Part shown: one piece after another, positions 1 to 44,862 of the stretch
Layout of the letters: each line of letters opens with the position of its first letter
Numbering within the stretch: position 1 is the first letter of the stretch
Source: Komagataeibacter europaeus LMG 18890
GTDB lineage: Bacteria > Pseudomonadota > Alphaproteobacteria > Acetobacterales > Acetobacteraceae
Direction of reading: 5' to 3'
Assembly (NCBI RefSeq): GCF_000285295.1
Contig: NZ_CADP01000021.1
Coordinates: forward strand, 1 to 44,862
Length of the DNA: 44,862 nt
The notes under the pieces: generated by a model
Told to the model about the DNA's origin: nothing
What the model saw: only the letters and a program-made list of their open reading frames with translations
Databases searched by the model: none
Translations under genes and position numbers: made by a program

Positions 1-44
1 TCATAATCCCTTGGTCGGCGGTTCAAATCCGTCCACCGCTACCA
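1..44 (+). tRNA. attL inside the 3' part of tRNA-Met (CAT)
   Basis: This is the 3' portion of an elongator tRNA-Met gene. The CAT anticodon is at 2-4, followed by the 3' anticodon stem, a T-arm with loop TTCAAAT, the acceptor strand CACCGCT, discriminator A and an encoded CCA. The same 44 bases recur exactly at 44819-44862, so this segment is the left attachment core. The repeat reaches the first base of the window, so the true core may be longer on the left. Integration here restores the tRNA 3' end, as is common for tyrosine integrases. The 5' half of the tRNA cannot be seen. Confidence 0.93.
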
Positions 45-105: not shown

Positions 106-115
106 GTTAGTCACT
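106..115 (+). repeat. Candidate integrase arm-type site, copy 1
   Basis: The 10-mer GTTAGTCACT occurs here, at 137-146 and at 44724-44733, all in the same orientation. Two copies lie 31 bp apart beside attL and one lies about 90 bp inside attR. Copies 1 and 2 overlap the last codons of the integrase gene. Short direct repeats flanking both cores are typical integrase arm-binding sites, but that role is inferred from position only. Confidence 0.6.
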
Positions 116-1219
116 TTTTTTCCCCTGTTTAGAAATGTTAGTCACTCCCCTCTTTTCCTGCCGCTGCTCCAGGGCGCGATTGGAGAGCTTGGCGATGGCA
201 TTCACCGCGCGGGTTTTCTGCTCGGCATGACGCACATATACGCTCACGGATGCGGCCGTAGTGTGTCCCGTGATCGACATGATTTCCCGTTCCGTGCATC
301 CCATTTCCGCCAACCATGATGCCGCTGTCGCCCGCAGGCCATGCCACACAATTCCTTTCAGCCCGGCAGACCGGATTGCCTTACTGACAGCGGATTGAAA
401 CTGCCCTAGTTCCCATGGCCTGCCCGGTGCGTACGTCAGGATGGTATCCGCAGTGCGCAGCGTCAACTCCCGTTCAAGGACGCTTTTCAGTTCGGGATGG
501 CAAGGTATCCATACCTTTGCGCCCGTCTTCTCCTGCACGACCTCGATCACGTCCCCATCAAAGGCGCTCCAGGTCATGGCAATCTGGTCGATCCCGCGTT
601 GCCCCGTACCCAGCGCAAGCAGAAGGGGCAGCCGAAACTGCGGCTTTTCCCGCAGGAAGGTCTGAATTTCATCACGCGTCCATGCCCGATAGCCCGGACC
701 GGTCTTGAGCCGTTTGGGACGAAGGGCCGGGTTATCGGAACGCATGCCGATCTCGATGGCGTAGCTCATCAGGATTGAGAGCATCGATACCGTCTTGTTG
801 GCACGACGCGGGCTTGGAATCGGGTCATCCCCTTCTTTCCGGCCGGGGCGGAAAGCGTAGCGATCGCGGACCAGCCTTACGGCTGCCCTGTCCAGTTCAG
901 ACACCAGCGCCATGCCGAAATCATCCTCCAGCGGCTGGAGAAACTTTTCATAGTCCTTCCGCGTGCTGGGCTTGAGCTGCGTCCATTCCGGTGTTCCCCG
1001 ATAACGGGCTATCAGTTCGGCCAGGCTGCCGGGAATAATGCCCGGCCGAGGCCTTTCGCTTTGCTCAAAACGGTTATGGATTTCCTGGTAGGACTTCAGA
1101 AACTCGGGGCTGCCGATCTCGCCCGCGATCCGCAGGCGAACACCATGCCGACGGTAATAAGCGTATTTTTTGCGACGGGCCTGATAGGTATTAACGTAAG
1201 GTAGAACGACGTTGGCCAC
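107..1219 (-). CDS. int: Tyrosine recombinase (phage integrase)
   Basis: Site-specific recombinase expected to catalyse attP x attB integration at the adjacent tRNA-Met. The catalytic set is visible in a 370-aa protein: Arg in GTGQR near residue 208, HGLR (His293, Arg296), GHTT (His319) and nucleophile Tyr328 in VYVRH. The N-terminal part (about 1-170) is arm- and core-binding in character. A GTG start at 1219, four bases after GGAAG, is preferred over in-frame upstream starts because those run through the coding region of the HTH gene at 1191-1499, whose 3' end this gene overlaps by 29 bp. It is the last gene of the leftward operon, and its 3' end contains two candidate arm sites. Its position between attL and the excisionase candidate fits a standard integration module. 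Confidence 0.93.
   Translation of the reverse strand: MANVVLPYVNTYQARRKKYAYYRRHGVRLRIAGEIGSPEFLKSYQEIHNRFEQSERPRPGIIPGSLAELIARYRGTPEWTQLKPSTRKDYEKFLQPLEDDFGMALVSELDRAAVRLVRDRYAFRPGRKEGDDPIPSPRRANKTVSMLSILMSYAIEIGMRSDNPALRPKRLKTGPGYRAWTRDEIQTFLREKPQFRLPLLLALGTGQRGIDQIAMTWSAFDGDVIEVVQEKTGAKVWIPCHPELKSVLERELTLRTADTILTYAPGRPWELGQFQSAVSKAIRSAGLKGIVWHGLRATAASWLAEMGCTEREIMSITGHTTAASVSVYVRHAEQKTRAVNAIAKLSNRALEQRQEKRGVTNISKQGKKSD
137..146 (+). repeat. Candidate integrase arm-type site, copy 2
   Basis: Second GTTAGTCACT copy, 31 bp from the first in the same orientation, inside the integrase C-terminal codons. The third copy is at 44724-44733 near attR. Confidence 0.6.
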
Positions 1220-1499
1220 TGGTCTTCCCTGCTGCCGCTGCAGCAGCAGTCCATGAATTCGTTGTCCGTTTCTGTCCGGGCCTGGCTGAGGCGGCCTGAC
1301 CCTTGATCCGGTCCATCCAGGCATCGAGTTCTTCAATGAACCAGACGACCCGGCGGCCGGAAATATGATGGGGTCTGGGCGCATTGCCTTCGGCCACTTC
1401 TCGCCGCAGCGTCGTGACACTGATGCCACCGGCATACGCGGCCGCCAGTTCCTCGCTCATGGCACGCGGCCAATACGGCAGGCGCGATGCATCCTTCAT
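1191..1499 (-). CDS. AlpA/MerR-like HTH protein, candidate excisionase
   Basis: A 102-aa DNA-binding protein. Residues around 14-60 form a winged-helix pattern: AYAGGISVTTLRREVAEG is a helix-turn-helix, followed by a wing (HISGRRVVWFIEELDAWM) of the type found in AlpA-like excisionases. The ATG at 1499 has GGAAGGA nine bases upstream and overlaps the TGA of the gene before it (ATGA), so it is preferred over the longer ATG at 1532. Placement directly before int and overlapping its start argues for a recombination directionality factor. A purely transcriptional role is possible. The C-terminal third is Ala/Arg-rich and may be disordered. Confidence 0.75.
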   Translation of the reverse strand: MKDASRLPYWPRAMSEELAAAYAGGISVTTLRREVAEGNAPRPHHISGRRVVWFIEELDAWMDRIKGQAASARPGQKRTTNSWTAAAAAAGKTSGQRRSTLR

Positions 1500-4245: not shown

Positions 4246-4724
4246 GACTGTGCACCCATCTGCTGGAGCACCTGCGCCATGCGGGCGCATACGCCCTCCA
4301 CATAGGCACGATCCCGGTAATCCCCACGCGGGCTGTGCCGCTTCATCTGAGCAAATACCGGTTTAAGATCACCCCAATGCCCGCAATCGAAGCCAAGCCA
4401 CCATACGGTGTCGGGCTCGCCGTCGTCAGGGATATGGCAGATCGACGTGGCTTCATCGCCATGCGAACAGCCGCCGGTAAATGTCAGACCGCCATGCGCT
4501 GCCTCATGAACAGCGTCCGGCATGTCATCATACGTCAGGCCATAGAGCGGATGCTGGGGCGGAATGCCCACATATCCGCACAGGATCCCGAGCTCCGGAT
4601 TTCGCTTGATCAGGCACGGCAGGCCAGTCGCCTTGTCCTGCCATTGAGTCTTGTCGGGCTCATTGTCCCAGGGACCGGGGCCAAACGGTTGTTTGTCCAC
4701 CGTGTGGTATTCACGGGTCTGCAT
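4242..4724 (-). CDS. Conserved phage/plasmid protein of unknown function
   Basis: 160 aa. It contains the motif order LCGYVGIPPQHPLYG, VHEAAHGGLTFTGGC and WWLGFDCGHWGD, an arrangement I recognise from a conserved family in phages and plasmids of alphaproteobacteria. That family has no known function. The conserved His, Cys and Asp residues suggest metal binding, which is inference. ATG 4724 has GGAGG eight bases upstream. This is the first gene of the leftward operon, and its ribosome binding site lies inside a perfect 10-bp hairpin (4731-4755). Confidence 0.8.
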   Translation of the reverse strand: MQTREYHTVDKQPFGPGPWDNEPDKTQWQDKATGLPCLIKRNPELGILCGYVGIPPQHPLYGLTYDDMPDAVHEAAHGGLTFTGGCSHGDEATSICHIPDDGEPDTVWWLGFDCGHWGDLKPVFAQMKRHSPRGDYRDRAYVEGVCARMAQVLQQMGAQS

Positions 4725-4730
4725 AAAGAA

Positions 4731-4755
4731 CCTCCATCGCGGGTGGCGATGGAGG
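4731..4755 (-). promoter_or_regulatory. Leader hairpin covering the ribosome binding site of the leftward operon
   Basis: A perfect inverted repeat: CCTCCATCGC (4731-4740), loop GGGTG, GCGATGGAGG (4746-4755). In the minus-strand RNA the 3' arm contains the GGAGG that serves the gene starting at 4724, so folding would hide it. The minus strand continues with TTCTTT, a weak U-tract, so the hairpin could also be an attenuator or terminator for the repressor transcript. Confidence 0.6.
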
Positions 4756-4758
4756 TAG

Positions 4759-4773
4759 TTTCATTTAATGAAA
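4759..4773. promoter_or_regulatory. Operator-like palindrome O1
   Basis: TTTCATTTAATGAAA, two TTTCAT/ATGAAA half sites around a TTA centre. A near copy is at 4792-4806 and a related half-site pair at 5223-5233. All lie around the two HTH regulator genes, so they are probable binding sites of the repressor or the Cro-like protein. On the minus strand a TTGACT (4785-4780) lies between O1 and O2 and may be the -35 of the leftward promoter; its -10 is not clear. Confidence 0.65.
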
Positions 4774-4791
4774 GTATCTAGTCAAGAATAA

Positions 4792-4806
4792 TTTCATTTA
4801 GTGAAA
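4792..4806. promoter_or_regulatory. Operator-like palindrome O2
   Basis: TTTCATTTAGTGAAA, differing from O1 in one base, with centres 33 bp apart (about three helical turns). It lies just beyond the 3' end of the repressor gene and upstream of the leftward operon. Confidence 0.62.
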
Positions 4807-4809
4807 CTG

Positions 4810-5160
4810 TCATTTCGTGGACATCGCTTTTCCTGTTTTGATCCAGATATCCAATTTCTCCGAATCCAATTCATTAGCCAGCTCAGCGATTTCCTTATAA
4901 CGCGCGGCTTTTAGGCTTTCTTTTGGATCAAATAACAATTGCTCGGGGGTGGCTTTTAACAATTCCGCCACCCTTACGAATTGCGACAACGTCATATTTA
5001 CCTTACCATTCAGCCACTTAGAGACAGATGGTTCGGACATCCCAAGTCCCTCAGCTAGGTGTCGCTGAGTCACGCCACGCAAGCGCATCCAAGGTCGAAC
5101 GAACCGCAACGTGTGGCAGTTCAGCTCTACTTCTTCGGGTGTGAGATGCTTGTCGCTCAT
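4810..5160 (-). CDS. XRE-family regulator (candidate prophage repressor)
   Basis: 116 aa. An XRE/Cro-CI helix-turn-helix occupies about 18-75 (MRLRGVTQRHLAEGLGMSEPSVSKWLNGKVNMTLSQF), with an unusual N-terminal extension. The C-terminal 40 residues (KAARYKEIAELANELDSEKLDIWI) are a short helical tail that may dimerise. There is no LexA/CI-type serine peptidase domain, so release from lysogeny cannot use RecA-stimulated self-cleavage of this protein. It is transcribed leftward, divergent from the Cro-like gene at 5253, with TTTCA/TGAAA palindromes on both sides. The region is less GC-rich than its surroundings. Which regulator maintains lysogeny is inferred from layout. Confidence 0.8.
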   Translation of the reverse strand: MSDKHLTPEEVELNCHTLRFVRPWMRLRGVTQRHLAEGLGMSEPSVSKWLNGKVNMTLSQFVRVAELLKATPEQLLFDPKESLKAARYKEIAELANELDSEKLDIWIKTGKAMSTK

Positions 5161-5172
5161 GGCGAAACGGTG

Positions 5173-5194
5173 CCACTACACGTGCACATAGTGG
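5173..5194. promoter_or_regulatory. Inverted repeat upstream of the repressor gene
   Basis: CCACTA (5173-5178) and TAGTGG (5189-5194) separated by ten bases, flanked by the weaker match GGTG/CACC. It lies 12 bp before the repressor start codon on its upstream side and differs from the TTTCA family, so it may bind a different regulator or form a 5' leader hairpin. Confidence 0.4.
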
Positions 5195-5216
5195 ATGCCA
5201 CCACATGAAAACTTTC

Positions 5217-5245
5217 TTGACCTGAAAGTTTCATCTGAATAAATC
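5217..5245 (+). promoter_or_regulatory. Rightward early promoter with embedded operator
   Basis: The -35 is TTGACC (5217-5222), then a 17-bp spacer and a -10-like TAAATC (5240-5245). The spacer contains the palindrome TGAAAGTTTCA (5223-5233), built from the half sites seen at 4759 and 4792, so a bound regulator would block polymerase. The start point would fall at about 5252, one base before the ATG of the Cro-like gene. Confidence 0.62.
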
Positions 5246-13170: not shown

Positions 13171-13199
13171 GAAATCATATGGTTAGCGGAGACCGCGCC

Positions 13200-14054
13200 A
13201 TGCCGTCCACTGATGAGGCCCCAAAAGCCCCTCAGAACTCGGCCGACAATCTGCTGATCAAGACATGGCTTCACAACCGTGGTGCGAACACGCGCCGCGC
13301 GTATGAAAGCGATGTCCGCGCCTTCCTTGCGCATGTGGGCAAACCGCTGGCGCAGGTGACGGCGGCCGACCTGCAAAGCTGGTACGACAGCCTGACGGGA
13401 GCGGACGCCACGCGACGGCGGAAGCTGATGGCCGTCAAGTCGCTGCTGTCCTATGGCGCTGCCATGGAAATGCTGCCCCGCGATGTGGGGCCTGCCGTCC
13501 GTGTGCCGAAGATGCGCGACAGCCTTCATGAGCGGATCCTTACGCAGGAACAGGTGCGCGACCTCATTGATGGGGAAACGGACCCGCGCAGGCGGACAAT
13601 GCTGCGCGTCCTGTATGCCACCGGCCTGCGTATCTCCGAGCTTTGCGCCATCCGGTGGAAAGACCTCAAGCGCCGCCAGCAGGGCGGCGTCGCCCATGTG
13701 TTCGGCAAGGGCGGCAAGAACAGAACCGTCGAGATCCCCGCCAAGGTGTGGAAGGAGATCGTGGCGCTGCGTGTTGATAGTCGGCCAGAAGCGCCGATGG
13801 TCCCCGGCCACGATGGCGGTCCGCTTAGCGTCGATGCGGTCCACCGCTCCGTTAAGCGGGCCGCGAAGCGCGCAGGCCTGCCATCGCAGGTTTCCGCGCA
13901 CTGGCTGCGCCACGCGTACGCCAGCCACATGCAGGACAACGGCGCGCCGGCGCATGTGGTGCAGCAGCAGCTGGGCCACACATCGCTGGCGACCACGACA
14001 CGATACAGCCACGCACGCGAAGGCGCGGGCGCTGGGAAATTTCTGGACCTGTAG
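13200..14054 (+). CDS. Second tyrosine recombinase, XerC/D-like
   Basis: 284 aa from ATG 13200, which has GGAG eight bases upstream; an ATG at 13179 would add seven residues. It has an N-terminal SAM-like core-binding domain (RGANTRRAYESDVRAFLAHV) and a complete catalytic domain. Numbered from the longer start: Arg151 in ATGLRISEL, Lys177/180 in GKGGKNRT, His241 and Arg244 in HWLRHAYASH, His267 in LGHTS and Tyr276 in TRYSH. All catalytic residues are intact, so it should be active. It lies in the middle of the prophage, far from the att sites, with its own promoter and a GATAAC repeat array. It might resolve multimers, invert a segment, or act on host dif-like sites; none of this is shown. 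Confidence 0.88.
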   Translation: MPSTDEAPKAPQNSADNLLIKTWLHNRGANTRRAYESDVRAFLAHVGKPLAQVTAADLQSWYDSLTGADATRRRKLMAVKSLLSYGAAMEMLPRDVGPAVRVPKMRDSLHERILTQEQVRDLIDGETDPRRRTMLRVLYATGLRISELCAIRWKDLKRRQQGGVAHVFGKGGKNRTVEIPAKVWKEIVALRVDSRPEAPMVPGHDGGPLSVDAVHRSVKRAAKRAGLPSQVSAHWLRHAYASHMQDNGAPAHVVQQQLGHTSLATTTRYSHAREGAGAGKFLDL

Positions 14055-14098
14055 CGTCACGCACGCCGGTCCCCTCACCCGTGAAGCAAGGAAGCCTC

Positions 14099-14278
14099 AT
14101 GAAGCCGAGCCGCAAGCCGCGCCAGCCCGCAACGGATGTCACTGTCTGGGAGCGTGCCGCCGCGCATTATCGTCGTATTGCGGGCCGTGACCGTCGCCCT
14201 GGCGTGAAGATCTGGGCCAGCGACCGCGCGGCGGAATGCGCGGCCAACATGCGGCGTGCGCAGCGGGAGGCCGCATGA
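14099..14278 (+). CDS. Small basic hypothetical protein
   Basis: 59 aa, rich in Arg (RRIAGRDRRPGVKIWASDRA), with no membrane segment. AGGAAG lies five bases before ATG 14099, which is preferred over a GTG at 14081. The stop overlaps the start of the DUF3164 gene. It may bind nucleic acid, judging only from charge. Confidence 0.55.
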   Translation: MKPSRKPRQPATDVTVWERAAAHYRRIAGRDRRPGVKIWASDRAAECAANMRRAQREAA

Positions 14279-39274: not shown

Positions 39275-39382
39275 CTGCTACAGCCCCGGCCCCGTGGTTG
39301 GATGGCCGATAAAGGCCGGGACTGCGCGCGCAGGATACGCAACCAGAGCGCGCATTTGTGTAACAAAACACAACCCAAGGTA

Positions 39383-39406
39383 ACCGCCAGCGAGGCGGTT
39401 TTTTTT
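39383..39406 (+). terminator. Rho-independent terminator
   Basis: CCGCC (39384-39388), AGCGA loop, GGCGG (39394-39398), eight T (39399-39406). It is nearly identical to the terminator at 38113 and lies 15 bp before the next start codon. Confidence 0.85.
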
Positions 39407-39421
39407 ATGGAGATGCCAGAC

Positions 39422-39748
39422 ATGGCCGAAGACACCACCACCAGCACCGCGATCCCCGCGCTGGAAAGCCTGCTCGAAACCGCGCTGGGCAAAAAGGATA
39501 CGGCCGCAACACAGGCGGACATCCAGCTGGCCGGCACCGTGCTGCAGCTGCTGATCCCCGTAATTGTCGAACGCGCGGCCCCGAACCTCGATCTGGACGG
39601 CGTCGATGCCGCCATCACGAAGATCGTGGGCGGGGTCACGGACCTGAAAACCGCGATCGAGGCGAAGCCGGCAACAGTGGCCGCCACGGTCGCGCCCGCA
39701 AAGGTCGAGGCCCCGCACCCGGTCGTGCCCGGTCAGCCGATCCGCTGA
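39422..39748 (+). CDS. Hypothetical protein after lysis cassette
   Basis: 108 aa from ATG 39422 with GGAG nine bases upstream; ATGs at 39407 and 39413 are alternatives. Helical N-terminus (LESLLETALGKKDTAATQAD), a hydrophobic stretch (LAGTVLQLLIPVIVERAAPN) that is short for a membrane helix, and a Pro/Ala/Val tail. The role is not recognised. The start abuts the U-tract of the terminator. Confidence 0.6.
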   Translation: MAEDTTTSTAIPALESLLETALGKKDTAATQADIQLAGTVLQLLIPVIVERAAPNLDLDGVDAAITKIVGGVTDLKTAIEAKPATVAATVAPAKVEAPHPVVPGQPIR

Positions 39749-39764
39749 TCTGTCAACCTGATCC

Positions 39765-39784
39765 GGCCGGTCTGTAAACCGGCC
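39765..39784. other. Perfect hairpin GGCCGGT/ACCGGCC
   Basis: Seven-base arms at 39765-39771 and 39778-39784 with loop CTGTAA, in the 159-bp spacer between 39748 and 39908. No T-run follows. It is possibly a processing or regulatory structure. Confidence 0.4.
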
Positions 39785-39835
39785 GCCGGGCTTCCTGCAT
39801 CCCGCCACCTGTAAACTGGTCCACCTGCATCACGC

Positions 39836-39860
39836 AAAAAACGCCGGATTTCTGCGGCGT
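39836..39860 (-). terminator. Minus-strand terminator
   Basis: On the minus strand ACGCCG-CAGAAATC-CGGCGT is followed by six T (39841-39836). It would stop leftward transcripts from the 40671-42240 gene group before they enter the lysis region. Confidence 0.6.
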
Positions 39861-39907
39861 TGTGGCGAAGGTGGACTATTTTCGCATCAAGACTGGAAAA
39901 CTGGTCC

Positions 39908-40537
39908 ATGACCCAGCGTGTAAACTTCGTCGCCATTGATGGCAGCCGCCGCCGTTTCCTTGGCATGGGGCTGCTGTCAGCGGCCGGCATCGCCGCCACC
40001 GCGATGCTGCCCGGGTGCAAGAGCACCACAACCGGCAATGTCACCACCATCACGATCAACGTGGCCGAGATCAAGGATTACGGGCAGGCTGGCCTGAACG
40101 CCGTCACCACCGTCCTGAGCATCGCGGCCGTCGCCAGTGCGATCGGTACGCCCGCCGTGGGCATCATCGGCCTGGCGGACACGGCGCTGTCCACCGCCCT
40201 GACCGACTTTTCCACGGCGGCCGGCTCCACGCTGATCATCACCTATGACGACACAAACTGGAAAACCCGGGTGGACAGCGTCCTGTCTGCGCTGACCAAG
40301 GTGGAAAGCGACCTGAGCGCCGCGATCACCGGGGTCTCGACCAAGGTCAGCAGCACCGACCTGTCCAACGCCAACACGGCCCTGAACGCGCTGAGCACCA
40401 TCGTGTCGGCCTTCAAGGCCCTGCTGGACAGCGTGGCTACGCGCCGGAATGTCGGGGCACGCCTGTCGGGTTCTGCCGCTGCACCGTCCCAGGCGCAGGT
40501 GCAGCAGGCGCTCCAGGTGCTGGGGGTGACGGCATGA
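39908..40537 (+). CDS. Twin-arginine-type lipoprotein
   Basis: 209 aa. The N-terminus has SRRRFLGMGLLSAAGIAATA and then MLPGC: a Tat motif (S-R-R-x-F-L) followed by a hydrophobic core and a lipobox with Cys near residue 37. The mature part is Thr/Ser/Ala-rich with a coiled helix (DLSAAITGVSTKVSSTDLSN). A folded, lipid-anchored envelope protein is predicted. Tat-dependent lipoproteins are unusual in phages. Superinfection exclusion or surface modification is possible. The stop overlaps the start of the 44-aa membrane protein. Confidence 0.7.
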   Translation: MTQRVNFVAIDGSRRRFLGMGLLSAAGIAATAMLPGCKSTTTGNVTTITINVAEIKDYGQAGLNAVTTVLSIAAVASAIGTPAVGIIGLADTALSTALTDFSTAAGSTLIITYDDTNWKTRVDSVLSALTKVESDLSAAITGVSTKVSSTDLSNANTALNALSTIVSAFKALLDSVATRRNVGARLSGSAAAPSQAQVQQALQVLGVTA

Positions 40538-40668
40538 CGCCCTTTATGCAGGGCGTCATCTCCGGTGCGGGCGGCGTTGTCGTCCTCATTGGGCTGCTGG
40601 TCACGATCCCGCTCAAGCTGCATGCGCTTTATGTGGCAACACAATTGCAAAACCGTGGGATTGAATAA
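40534..40668 (+). CDS. 44-aa single-pass membrane protein
   Basis: Forty-five codons. One clear helix (ISGAGGVVVLIGLLVTIPLK) and a short polar tail ending NRGIE. It starts at an ATGA overlap with the lipoprotein stop. It may act with that lipoprotein at the envelope. Confidence 0.55.
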   Translation: MTPFMQGVISGAGGVVVLIGLLVTIPLKLHALYVATQLQNRGIE

Positions 40669-40670
40669 TG

Positions 40671-41045
40671 TCAGACTGAACGCAAGACGGAAGGACGTTT
40701 ATCGCCATGACGAAGATAGTTAATAATCTCATTAGCAATGACATTCCGAGGATCAATAGATCTTTGAATAAATGAATTTCCTTTGGTAGATACAAAATTT
40801 CCTGAAGGGGTCGTATATTTATCAAGCCATTGAATTATATCATCTCTATCGCTAACATTATCGTAATAAATATTTATATCTATGTGAGTATCTCTCCCCA
40901 ACTTATCTCTCCGTATGTCTGCATCCAATTCAGCAGACACGGTACAAGATGCTCCATAGGCCAATGATATTTTACCGGTAGGATTGGTTTTCAGAAGATC
41001 TACACTAACCAATACACTTCCACCATTATCACTAAAGAAAGTCAT
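40671..41045 (-). CDS. AT-rich accessory protein, unknown
   Basis: 124 aa, not recognised. Beta-rich start (GGSVLVSVDLLKTNPTGKIS, LAYGASCTVSAELDADIRRD), then HIDINIYYDNVSDRDDIIQW and a helical end. The gene is clearly more AT-rich than the neighbouring phage genes and runs opposite to them, 2 bp from the converging 44-aa gene. Recent acquisition as lysogenic cargo is likely. Confidence 0.6.
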   Translation of the reverse strand: MTFFSDNGGSVLVSVDLLKTNPTGKISLAYGASCTVSAELDADIRRDKLGRDTHIDINIYYDNVSDRDDIIQWLDKYTTPSGNFVSTKGNSFIQRSIDPRNVIANEIINYLRHGDKRPSVLRSV

Positions 41046-41096
41046 ATTTTATTTACCCCATACGTTAATTGAAAATATTTAATTATAGAATTACAT

Positions 41097-41564
41097 TCAT
41101 AACACAACGGAATTGAGAATATTATTTTTCATATCCGTAGAAACCAATATCTCGACCGTGGGCTGTCGCCCCAGTTCATGCAATGCTGCTTCAATACGCC
41201 CGATCTTGCTTTCATGTAATAGATCCCGCATGCGTCGCACGGACGATTCAGCCACGCCCAGACGGCGCGCCAGTTCTACATTGCTGATCCTGTTCTCCAG
41301 CATGGCCGTATGCAGCGCCAGCTTGGCGGCTTCCAGCATGGGCACATAGACCAGAGGGCGACCATTGGCCGCAGGCGGCACGGGAACGGCCGCACCGTCA
41401 TCCACATAGATGGACAGCGATGTGACCAGCAGGTCCTGGGCCTCGCGCAGGGCTTCCTCCCGGGTTGCGCCCTCGGTTGCCCCCGGCAGCCCCTCGAATG
41501 AAGCCGTGATGGTGCCGTCCGGATTGGTCTCCAGATCGACCGGGTAAGCGTAAAGCATCCTCAT
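41097..41564 (-). CDS. hicB: HicB-type antitoxin without HicA
   Basis: 155 aa. The N-terminal half is the HicB fold (LYAYPVDLETNPDGTITASF, EGLPGATEGATREEALREAQ, DLLVTSLSIYVDDGAAVPVP), a degenerate RNase H-like domain. The C-terminal half is an HTH (NVELARRLGVAESSVRRMRD). HicA is normally encoded just upstream, but the 62 bp before this start hold no HicA, so this is an orphan. A recruited regulator or anti-toxin against host HicA is possible. The downstream end is AT-rich. An ATG at 41558 is an alternative start. Confidence 0.85.
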   Translation of the reverse strand: MRMLYAYPVDLETNPDGTITASFEGLPGATEGATREEALREAQDLLVTSLSIYVDDGAAVPVPPAANGRPLVYVPMLEAAKLALHTAMLENRISNVELARRLGVAESSVRRMRDLLHESKIGRIEAALHELGRQPTVEILVSTDMKNNILNSVVL

Positions 41565-41626
41565 ACCGCCATATGCGAGTTCTCTGCCAGAGCCAGCAGA
41601 TGATTGAGAAGGATATGGCGTCCGCG

Positions 41627-43171: not shown

Positions 43172-43794
43172 ACCGGGGCGACCGCGCGGCATTCCTATTC
43201 GCCTGCATGGTCGGACTGTCGGGATGTGCTATTCATCCCGCCAAGGTCAGCACAACCATTCCGCAGGCCATGGCAGGCATCCAGTCCAGTCTGGCACAGG
43301 CCGGAGTGGTATCGGTATCGCACGCGGGCGATTGGACCCCGGCGCAGGATGCGCTGTTCGTCCGCGCCATCCGGGCGGCACAGTACCGTCAGGACCGGCC
43401 CGACCCGGTGGTGGGAACGATTGCGGGCGATGTGACCCTGCAACTGTCTGGGCAGTTCACGCAGGGCGGACAGTTCAGCGTGGAGGCGATCACGACCGCG
43501 CCCACCTTTGGCATGCAGGCCGATGCCAGCCGGGTGCGCGGACAGACGGTCAGCCTGCCAGTGGCCTATGCGCCCCTATCATCCATGCCCGATGTGGAGA
43601 TGGGACGGCAGCTTGGATATGAGACTGAGATGTTGGCACAGAACGATGATACCCGGCATACCGAGGCTGCCCGGCTAATCGCCAACCGGGAAGCATTGCA
43701 GAGCCGGGTGCGAACAATGATTAATAGCTGGAAACAACGAAATTGTATCGGGGCTGCACCGACAGCCCCTTTTGTTGGAAGAACAAAACCCTAG
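43168..43794 (+). CDS. Lipoprotein
   Basis: 208 aa. Signal peptide AAFLFACMVGLSGC with lipobox LSGC (Cys at about residue 20). The mature part has VTLQLSGQFTQGGQFSVEAI and a long helical C-terminus (EAARLIANREALQSRVRTMI). The family is not recognised. The last 15 residues are encoded across a terminator hairpin (43750-43773). It is coupled to the papain-like gene, so both may act in the envelope. Confidence 0.65.
   Translation: MNRGDRAAFLFACMVGLSGCAIHPAKVSTTIPQAMAGIQSSLAQAGVVSVSHAGDWTPAQDALFVRAIRAAQYRQDRPDPVVGTIAGDVTLQLSGQFTQGGQFSVEAITTAPTFGMQADASRVRGQTVSLPVAYAPLSSMPDVEMGRQLGYETEMLAQNDDTRHTEAARLIANREALQSRVRTMINSWKQRNCIGAAPTAPFVGRTKP
43750..43773 (+). terminator. Terminator inside the 3' end of the lipoprotein gene
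   Basis: GGGGCTG (43750-43756), CACCGA loop, CAGCCCC (43763-43769), TTTT. A second hairpin TAGGAG-GGTAT-CTCCTA lies at 43792-43808. Together they separate this operon from the converging Ntn hydrolase gene. Confidence 0.7.
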
Positions 43795-43817
43795 GAGGGT
43801 ATCTCCTAACGTCTTGA

Positions 43818-44558
43818 TTATCCTTTAAAAATTTTATCTAGAACTGTATGTAGTTCTTCAACTTCTTGAGGTGCCCACTCACGATACATCGCCTCGCAAG
43901 GCGCAGATGGGGCGAGCGCTCCCGATGAAACCTGATCCAGCACCTGCTGCACCTTTGCGTCGTTCGCCGCCGCCTGGACCACCGGAATTTCCTTCGCTTT
44001 TGGGTCCGAATACATAACCTTCCCCTTTGTCTTGAGGGCTACCGCTGTATCGTGCAAGGTAGCCGTCTCATTCAGATTATTCGTTCTGTCCGAGAAAGCA
44101 AGATACCTAGTGCTTCCTCCGCTATAACGATCAGATTGCTGCGCCGTTGCCACTGCCTTAATAGCATCACGGTTTGCTGACCAGCAGTTATATGCATAAA
44201 GACCGCCGGATCCTGCGAAATAAGCTTCTTCACCATATTGCCGAGCTGTTCCATGAAAGAACTCGAGCTTGCTAGTTGTAATGTTGGCGATATGTAGAGC
44301 TATGCTATTCGTGTTCGCACCGGTACCCACCGAAACAGGGGGAATTTTCCCTCGGGTCGTTGGGTCTGACCCAAGCCACCTCTTCCATGCCTCGATTAAC
44401 GCACCGTTGCCGGCAAAAACGAAAGCCCAATTTCCAACGACGGAAATTTTTTCAAACCCGGTGTCATCAACAAACACTATAAAGCCCGGCCCGTCAACAG
44501 ACCACCGCGTGTCACAAGCCAACTGACCAGCGTCAAGGTCGATCACATTTGTTGTCAC
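43818..44558 (-). CDS. Proteasome-like Ntn hydrolase (stand-alone)
   Basis: 246 aa, GTG start with GGAAGAAG upstream. Removal of Met would expose Thr2 (TTNVIDLDAGQLACDTRWS). The proteasome beta/HslV pattern continues: Asp16 in ACDTR, Lys37 in FEKI (Lys33-equivalent), WAFVFAGNGALIEAWKRWL, GSGG (Ser117, equivalent to Ser129) and SDRYSGG (Asp143, Ser146; the DxxSGG motif). All active-site positions are present. The last 80 residues are an added helical domain (PVVQAAANDAKVQQVLDQVS, EEVEELHTVLDKIF-like). No HslU-like unfoldase is nearby. It is less GC-rich than the phage core and is next to attR on the minus strand, a typical cargo position. Function unknown: host takeover or anti-phage defence are options. 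Confidence 0.72.
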   Translation of the reverse strand: MTTNVIDLDAGQLACDTRWSVDGPGFIVFVDDTGFEKISVVGNWAFVFAGNGALIEAWKRWLGSDPTTRGKIPPVSVGTGANTNSIALHIANITTSKLEFFHGTARQYGEEAYFAGSGGLYAYNCWSANRDAIKAVATAQQSDRYSGGSTRYLAFSDRTNNLNETATLHDTAVALKTKGKVMYSDPKAKEIPVVQAAANDAKVQQVLDQVSSGALAPSAPCEAMYREWAPQEVEELHTVLDKIFKG

Positions 44559-44818
44559 GTCGACTTCTTCCGCCCCCGTAAAGTTTTGGGGCTTATATCG
44601 ACATGATCTTATCCACGGAAGACCCAGTTTAGCGAATATCGTTCATGCAAGATATGTTACCATCTATCCCATAATAGGCAAATATGACGCAGGCACGTGT
44701 GAGAATTTCGAATCGGAACAATCGTTAGTCACTCTTTGAACGACTCGTGATTTTTCCGTGCGCCATCTATGGGCATTTTCTGACCAACCGCATTGATATT
44801 ATTTGAAAAACAGGAAAA
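44559..44818. other. Non-coding attR-proximal region
   Basis: 260 bp without a gene. It contains the upstream region of the Ntn hydrolase gene (minus-strand TATAAG at about 44600 is a possible -10) and the third GTTAGTCACT repeat at 44724-44733. The stretch is AT-rich, as expected of an integrase-binding arm. Confidence 0.5.
44724..44733 (+). repeat. Candidate integrase arm-type site, copy 3
   Basis: Exact GTTAGTCACT, same orientation as the two copies near attL (106-115 and 137-146), 85 bp inside attR. Confidence 0.6.
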
Positions 44819-44862
44819 TCATAATCCCTTGGTCGGCGGTTCAAATCCGTCCACCGCTACCA
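44819..44862 (+). repeat. attR, 44-bp copy of the tRNA-Met 3' end
   Basis: Identical to 1-44. It is preceded by AT-rich phage sequence (TTTGAAAAACAGGAAAA) and not by a tRNA 5' half, so it is the displaced copy. The repeat pair defines the prophage as 44.8 kb. Confidence 0.93.

Follow-up and report, generated by a model that had tools for sequence, protein, structure and literature searches.

The DNA analysed here, referred to as the window, is 44,862 bp long and is exactly one prophage, bounded by a 44-bp att repeat that was detected as successive 40-mers. Its ORFs encode a terminase, a portal protein, capsid E, a tail sheath, a Mu-like baseplate and an integrase (Pfam). The last gene before attR, 260 bp away from it, is a minus-strand ORF of 246 open codons (44,558 to 43,818), convergent with the phage late genes; the GTG at 44,558–44,556 is the earliest start in its frame. 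It encodes a proteasome-like N-terminal nucleophile (Ntn) hydrolase. The features around this gene and at the window ends are as follows.

1–44, plus strand: attL, 44-bp exact repeat
107–1435, minus strand: tyrosine integrase (domain scans)
43,791–43,809, minus strand: terminator-like hairpin, directly past the stop of the Ntn gene (four terminator-like sites in the region versus a shuffle mean of 1.3)
43,818–44,558, minus strand: proteasome-like Ntn hydrolase gene, very probably RPC-type, 246 aa, GTG start, predicted N-terminal nucleophile Thr2 (ORF, alignment, AlphaFold2, Foldseek)
43,818–44,015, minus strand: proposed nested gene from an internal ATG at 44,015–44,013, 65 aa, M182–G246 (codon tests; free homologue P0003)
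43,821–44,084, minus strand: C-terminal extension, residues 159–246 (AlphaFold2 model)
44,018–44,027, minus strand: Shine-Dalgarno-like tract AAGGGGAAGG within K-G-K codons (pairing and codon tests)
44,085–44,555, minus strand: Ntn core, residues 2–158, with Thr2, Asp16, Lys37, Ser117, Asp143 and Ser146 (model; border set by eye on secondary structure)
44,724–44,733, plus strand: GTTAGTCACT, possible integrase arm-type site on the 5' side of the Ntn gene (repeat search)
44,819–44,862, plus strand: attR, 44-bp exact copy of attL, resembling a tRNA 3' end by eye

Position of the gene in the prophage

A preliminary description of this DNA had placed the gene beside attR, opposite to the phage genes and in a typical cargo position, and had called it less GC-rich. 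The orientation and the distance to attR agree with this, the att repeat confirms the att-side position, and the GC content of the gene is 50.5% versus 61.9% for the window, a value equally low in 39 of 883 sliding 741-bp windows. In the circular phage, the integrase gene and the Ntn gene come to lie 366 bp apart by arithmetic. The Ntn gene is probably a one-gene transcript, because a terminator-like hairpin follows its stop. Rfam gives no match within 43,500–44,862.

Further copies of GTTAGTCACT lie at 106–115 and 137–146, at the left window end. The window has three matches, each close to one of its ends, against 0.67 expected (at most one mismatch), and three are reached in 1 of 100 shuffles; the pattern was picked after the repeat had been seen, and these statistics are post hoc. 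The copies could be integrase arm sites.

Elsewhere in the window, a second tyrosine recombinase (13,179–14,054, plus strand; Pfam E 1.5e-32) overlaps with its 3' end an opposite-strand tRNA-Val call at 14,044–14,119 (ARAGORN), and the stretch 13,179–14,119 is possibly a nested element or an old att site. The Komagataeibacter phage phiKM1 and the Acetobacter phage phiAP1 cover 7% and 5%, respectively, of a 24.9-kb window query, a resemblance that makes an acetic-acid bacterium the probable host. The stretch 39,382–41,571 is about 80% identical to a part of phiKM1 annotated with RelA/SpoT-type and HicBA-like genes, and the ORF at 40,671–41,045 (minus strand) has a sub-threshold TNT match (E 0.0012).

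Active site, fold and family

Translation confirms the 246-aa ORF and, at the positions previously assigned to them, Thr2, Asp16, Lys37, Ser117 and the D143–G148 motif, which reads D143-R-Y-S-G-G148. The preliminary description had tied its reading to the conservation of Thr2, Asp16 and Lys37 and to an Ntn fold. The three residues prove invariant wherever present among 24 aligned members, and the proteasome-like fold is borne out by an AlphaFold2 model from the 24-member alignment (pLDDT 93.5, pTM 0.90). In the PDB, where a BPH–epoxomicin structure is the top match, Foldseek places BPH (5ovt, E 3.8e-5), yeast and mouse 20S beta5 and HslV (1m4y) nearest to the model, and in BFVD the nearest entries are phage proteins, some of them named proteasome beta or HslV. 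The profile PHROG 1040 ('peptidase HslV family') matches residues 1–178 with E 5.4e-15; Pfam, NCBIfam and phmmer against the PDB give no match for the window protein.

The core of the model has helices at 52–63, 119–129 and 132–142; after helix 52–63 strands follow until 119–129, and the second helix is absent. The extension consists of a helix (168–178), a strand (180–183) and four helices (193–199, 201–212, 222–225 and 230–244), so that the helical C-terminus noted earlier is recovered in the model, and an extension is found in 24 of 24 rows of the alignment (A5). This alignment has 24 rows including the window; three broken copies, L059 (stop at codon 40), L094 (frame shift) and L057 (degraded), were left out of it and of the codon tests below. 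Thr2 is present in all 23 rows that cover the N-terminus (L076 starts at a contig end), and Asp16, Lys37, Gly116, Gly118, Asp143 and Gly147 each in 24 of 24. Position 117 varies between Ser (18 rows) and Thr (6), and so does position 146 (15 and 9, respectively). The Ser/Asp/Ser group (Ser117, Asp143, Ser146) presumably has a role in the active site. Over six related pairs, 10 of 12 dN/dS values were computable, and these lie at 0.02–0.15 in core and extension alike, several of them with saturated dS; the relatives are under purifying selection.

The claim that this is not a recognised system does not hold. Fuchs, Alva and Lupas described 22 new proteasome homologs in 2021, RPC among them (PMC8665760). 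As far as the available text of that survey goes, RPC has a group I core with Thr/Asp/Lys, whose roles are assigned by proteasome numbering (equivalents of Thr1/Asp17/Lys33), lacks helix H2 and ends in a C-terminal domain with no known structural match. The family is restricted to Proteobacteria there (representative WP_140207863, KEGG OC.1493145), Table 1 gives it no phage mark, and neither a function-suggestive genomic context nor an AAA+ partner is reported. The window protein shares the Thr/Asp/Lys core, the loss of H2, the unmatched C-terminal domain and the absence of a visible AAA+ partner, and very probably is RPC, by its match to the published description rather than to the sequence of WP_140207863. 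It differs in the phage and lysogeny setting and in the internal start found here, which the 2021 description, in its available text, lacks; the words integrase, lysogeny, internal or alternative start and Shine-Dalgarno do not occur in that main text. Among the later papers listed as citing PMC8665760, none is on RPC by title, and a search of the literature on phage and proteasome-like peptidases, with most subscription journals outside its scope, found no study of this prophage gene.

Other homologs are less close. PPH is likewise phage-borne, with a Thr-type active site, and PHROG 1040, which presumably covers PPH, matches the window protein; PPH, however, has about 140 residues, in contrast to 246 aa with a C-terminal domain here. 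BPH and HslV are among the nearest solved folds, but their identity to the window protein is 16–18% and they are without such a C-terminal domain, according to PMC8665760. Unlike HslV, which is encoded with HslU, the window gene has no AAA+ unfoldase in sight around it.

The earlier statement that no ATPase partner lies in the window stands, with one qualification concerning the host. There is no AAA+ unfoldase among the 25 of 33 Pfam families listed over 87 window ORFs of at least 90 aa, and the other eight families are no better than about E 6e-8, because they are ordered by members and then by E-value. On another contig, the host genome carries an HslV gene of its own beside an HslU-like ORF (named by eye), so a host unfoldase probably exists.

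The search for relatives gives 27 distinct loci including the window (25 from an IMG/VR scan plus L056 and L057), that is 26 further ones, 24 of which lie on viral contigs. Alignments of two and then five rows were used as queries, since single-sequence searches were nearly blank and returned the window's copy alone; the IMG/VR scans gave 5 and then 25 loci, window included, and in nearly all of them the match runs from residue 1 to about 240. The handles L062 and L075 denote a single contig, and both L058 and L082 stand for the window. Host names are attached to two relatives in all, both from a scan of genome contigs: a full-length copy in a Paraburkholderia MAG (L056, 37% identity) and a degraded copy in an uncultured Rhodospirillales bacterium (L057). 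Pairwise identity among the 24 open copies goes down to 22%. The broken copies are L059:1–735 and L064:958–1692, which carry an in-frame stop at codon 40 and are identical in sequence (L064 comes from a genome of the same family), L094 from 3568 (frame shift) and L057 from 3881 (decay).

Beyond the window's own copy, a single-sequence search finds none in 100 relatives' genomes or in 385 of the class, and of 398 genomes of the phylum the 24-row profile matches five: the window's own in full, and four others weakly over part of the core. The gene is thus sparse among genomes, which suits mobile cargo. Plasmid records hold no match for the query P0002 or for L080; the window protein (P0001) has one there, to its C-terminal part alone. 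A same-genus genome has another PHROG 1040 gene (L045:1408–1938), shorter and without the extension by eye.

Codon usage at an internal ATG

Gly179, which ends a predicted helix, is invariant and is preceded by Arg in 17 of 24 rows and by Lys in 5. Three codons past it (column 212), 22 of 24 rows have a Met, which stands one codon earlier in L061 and L085. The Shine-Dalgarno codons in which this Gly and its neighbour are mostly written, within AAGGGGAAGG in the window, stand six bases before the conserved ATG, and a core 4-mer precedes the ATG in every row except L061 (23/24). The C-terminal ORF from the conserved Met spans 63–78 residues across rows, 65 in the window. L059 and L094 still have this ORF open, to which no weight is given because both lesions lie upstream and an open ORF would often be expected by chance.

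A first pairing-energy test on the 24 rows was modest, with a mean p of 0.35. It was followed by the whole-gene scan and the codon tests; they use 222 columns and 19 clusters at 60% identity, the clustering being the sole correction for relatedness, and the held-out sets omit the five rows from which the idea was formed. For excess anti-Shine-Dalgarno pairing against synonymous shuffles, columns 211–215 are the top five of 222, with the ATG at 212; in the held-out set of 14 clusters, column 212 is third, after the overlapping columns 213 and 214. By raw pairing energy the site is fifth of 222, after 174–176. Scrambled pyrimidine-rich baits also put the site second or third of 222 in three of three cases, and a purine bait puts it last, so the signal is one of Shine-Dalgarno-type purine richness rather than of exact order.

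The preference is visible at the level of synonymous codons. Gly179 is GGA or GGG in 15 of 19 clusters versus 127 of 344 elsewhere (p = 3.5e-4), and the Arg before it is AGA or AGG in 9 of 12 versus 43 of 194 (p = 2.7e-4). Eight further columns have Gly in 12 or more clusters, and there GGA or GGG is used in 4–7 of 13–19; at the invariant Arg of column 17, AGA or AGG is used in 2 of 19. Within-gene codon resampling gives 24 Shine-Dalgarno codons of 31 where 10.4 would be expected (p = 5e-5, the lowest value that 20,000 draws allow), and 17 of 24 versus 7.7 in the held-out set (p = 1e-4). By sequence, the gene has a conserved in-frame start codon before which codon choice favours a ribosome-binding site, and an internal translation start in the RPC gene is likely. 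Synonymous-site conservation gives no proof of such a start: over 12 related pairs, synonymous differences near it are fewer than in the rest of the gene in 6 and more numerous in 6.

A free-standing module occurs in 1 of 72,556 plasmid records. P0003 is a 69-aa protein of an Acetobacter pasteurianus plasmid (L003:5974–6183, NZ_CP039845.2) that matches the C-terminal part alone, 40.7% over 54 aa. Its annotated start is the matching Met, GAGGAG precedes it, and the distance from this Met to the AARDA motif is by eye equal in P0003 and the window protein, and one residue shorter in L059. The gene of P0003 follows an autotransporter-like gene and is itself followed by a RES-family gene and an AbiEii-type toxin gene. 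The genome G994 was recovered through the P0003 query. That the last 60 residues form a widespread free gene was considered and set aside: besides the single plasmid record, 7 of 249 Acetobacteraceae genomes matched; two of these matches are RPC loci, the other five are weak, and the two weak ones that were inspected (L066, L067) look like chance by eye. Modelled alone, the module reaches pLDDT 80 and pTM 0.41, below its confidence inside the full protein, and has no PDB match on this model of moderate confidence; the module alignment (A6) has 20 of the 24 rows, L073, L076, L061 and L093 being left out.

Setting of the relatives and possible function

Genes of lysogeny lie beside many RPC copies. 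An integrase ORF is found within 0.6 kb at six loci, confirmed singly for L076, L079 and L083 and named by eye for L056, L060 and L080, in keeping with the 7 integrases that the domain scans give below. A CI-type repressor lies within 0.5 kb in L077, L084, L091 and L092 and within 1.6 kb in L074. A tRNA lies within 0.5 kb in L064, L079 and L083 (tRNA-Ser in the last two), and in L056 a tmRNA is 2.1 kb from the RPC copy with the integrase between them. The window, L059/L064 (tRNA-Phe) and L062/L075 (where an amidase-like gene, by eye, adjoins) have the gene at a late-gene or att edge, and at 9 of the 25 IMG/VR-scan loci it is outermost, less than 700 bp from the contig end. The lysogeny-neighbour reading covers loci other than L061, L073, L078, L085–L090, L093 and L094. 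Among 145 neighbour ORFs (set A7, 145 of 149 chosen, four of L094 being left out and none coming from L059 or L061) there are 7 integrases, the window's own included, 7 with an S24 peptidase domain and one HEPN_AbiV; these are ORF counts, not gene counts, because the ORF caller includes spurious ORFs.

The reading preferred here, with a probability of roughly 0.6, is a lysogen-expressed, self-sufficient peptidase whose gene also yields its C-terminal part separately. In this scheme, a temperate phage of an acetic-acid bacterium would have the RPC gene as lysogenic cargo beside attP, the cargo role in itself being quite likely. Removal of Met would turn Thr2 into the nucleophile, the subunits would self-assemble like the nearest solved relatives, and the assembled peptidase may cleave unfolded or specific proteins without ATP. 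The codon data strongly suggest a second ribosome-binding site inside the gene, from which the last 65 residues would be made as a separate small protein. The locus would then give rise to two products, the peptidase and a free copy of its C-terminal part, much as Cas11, a small subunit, is translated separately inside a larger gene (PMC11899642); the proteins are unrelated, and the likeness is one of genetic layout alone. The small protein would probably bind the complex, where it may set stoichiometry, act as a cap or recruit substrate. No enzyme of the proteasome family is known to us to have a regulatory subunit nested in its gene.

Four readings compete with this one. Rather unlikely is a single-product RPC peptidase with no small protein, in which the AAGGGGAAGG tract signals a pause where core and extension meet or is a structural by-product. 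The tract does lie at the predicted helix end and the start of the extension strand, so the residues around Gly179 have a structural reason to be there; the preference for purines does not depend on the exact anti-Shine-Dalgarno order, and the pTM of 0.41 for the module alone also points this way. Structure, however, fixes amino acids and not synonymous codons, the codon shift occurs at this one conserved Gly column, and the tract stands at start-codon spacing from a near-invariant ATG, at which the free homologue P0003 begins. A remnant decaying without function is very improbable: broken copies are known (L059/L064, L094, L057), but they stand against 24 diverged open copies, an invariant active site and low dN/dS.

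It is unlikely, slightly more so than a single product, that the enzyme serves the phage itself, acting in the phage decision or the lytic cycle, for example by clearing a repressor or host factor. CI-type repressors adjoin several RPC copies and more distant relatives are annotated in isolated phages, but the Ntn gene runs against the direction of the late genes and has a terminator-like hairpin of its own, and 50,697 phage records hold no match for P0002 (E up to 0.1) or for L080 and L091 (E up to 0.01). The window protein matches 13 records there, none of them more than weakly (best E 0.05); six are short matches in Caulobacter phages, and two carry the annotation nucleophile aminohydrolase or HslV family. 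A protein ligase or amidase of high specificity, conferred by the extension, has its precedent in connectase, a highly specific ligase of the same superfamily (PMC8665760, section 3.3), and would suit a gene near which no partner unfoldase is seen; with ring peptidases as the closest solved folds, it is quite improbable.

For the self-sufficient peptidase with a separate C-terminal part, the benefit would lie with the lysogen, as protection or adjustment. As to function we can guess: superinfection defence has somewhat less than an even chance, other lysogen physiology a slightly smaller one, and control of the prophage is doubtful. More speculatively, RPC loci may be two-product prophage machines, in which a peptidase and a separate C-terminal subunit that assembles with it or restrains it guard the lysogen without an ATPase. 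The family name has been known since 2021; new here are the 26 further loci, mostly on viral contigs and often beside an attachment site, integrase or CI repressor, and the apparently conserved internal translation start. The prophage-edge setting beside lysogeny genes gives RPC a testable context, and the internal start predicts a precise 65-aa product. If the scheme is true, a self-compartmentalising peptidase would be controllable without an unfoldase.

PADLOC gives no match for the window protein, and over six proteins its sole match is P0002 to AbiEi (E 0.006). Two neighbours of other copies are recorded in their own right. The HEPN_AbiV match among the 145 neighbour ORFs has E 5e-28; L087:33–683, an ORF upstream of RPC that looks AbiV-like by eye, is possibly its source. 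In L090, a neighbour ORF (4632–5243) resembles another proteasome-type N-terminus by eye and has a weak PHROG match to a terminase family (E 1.7e-5).
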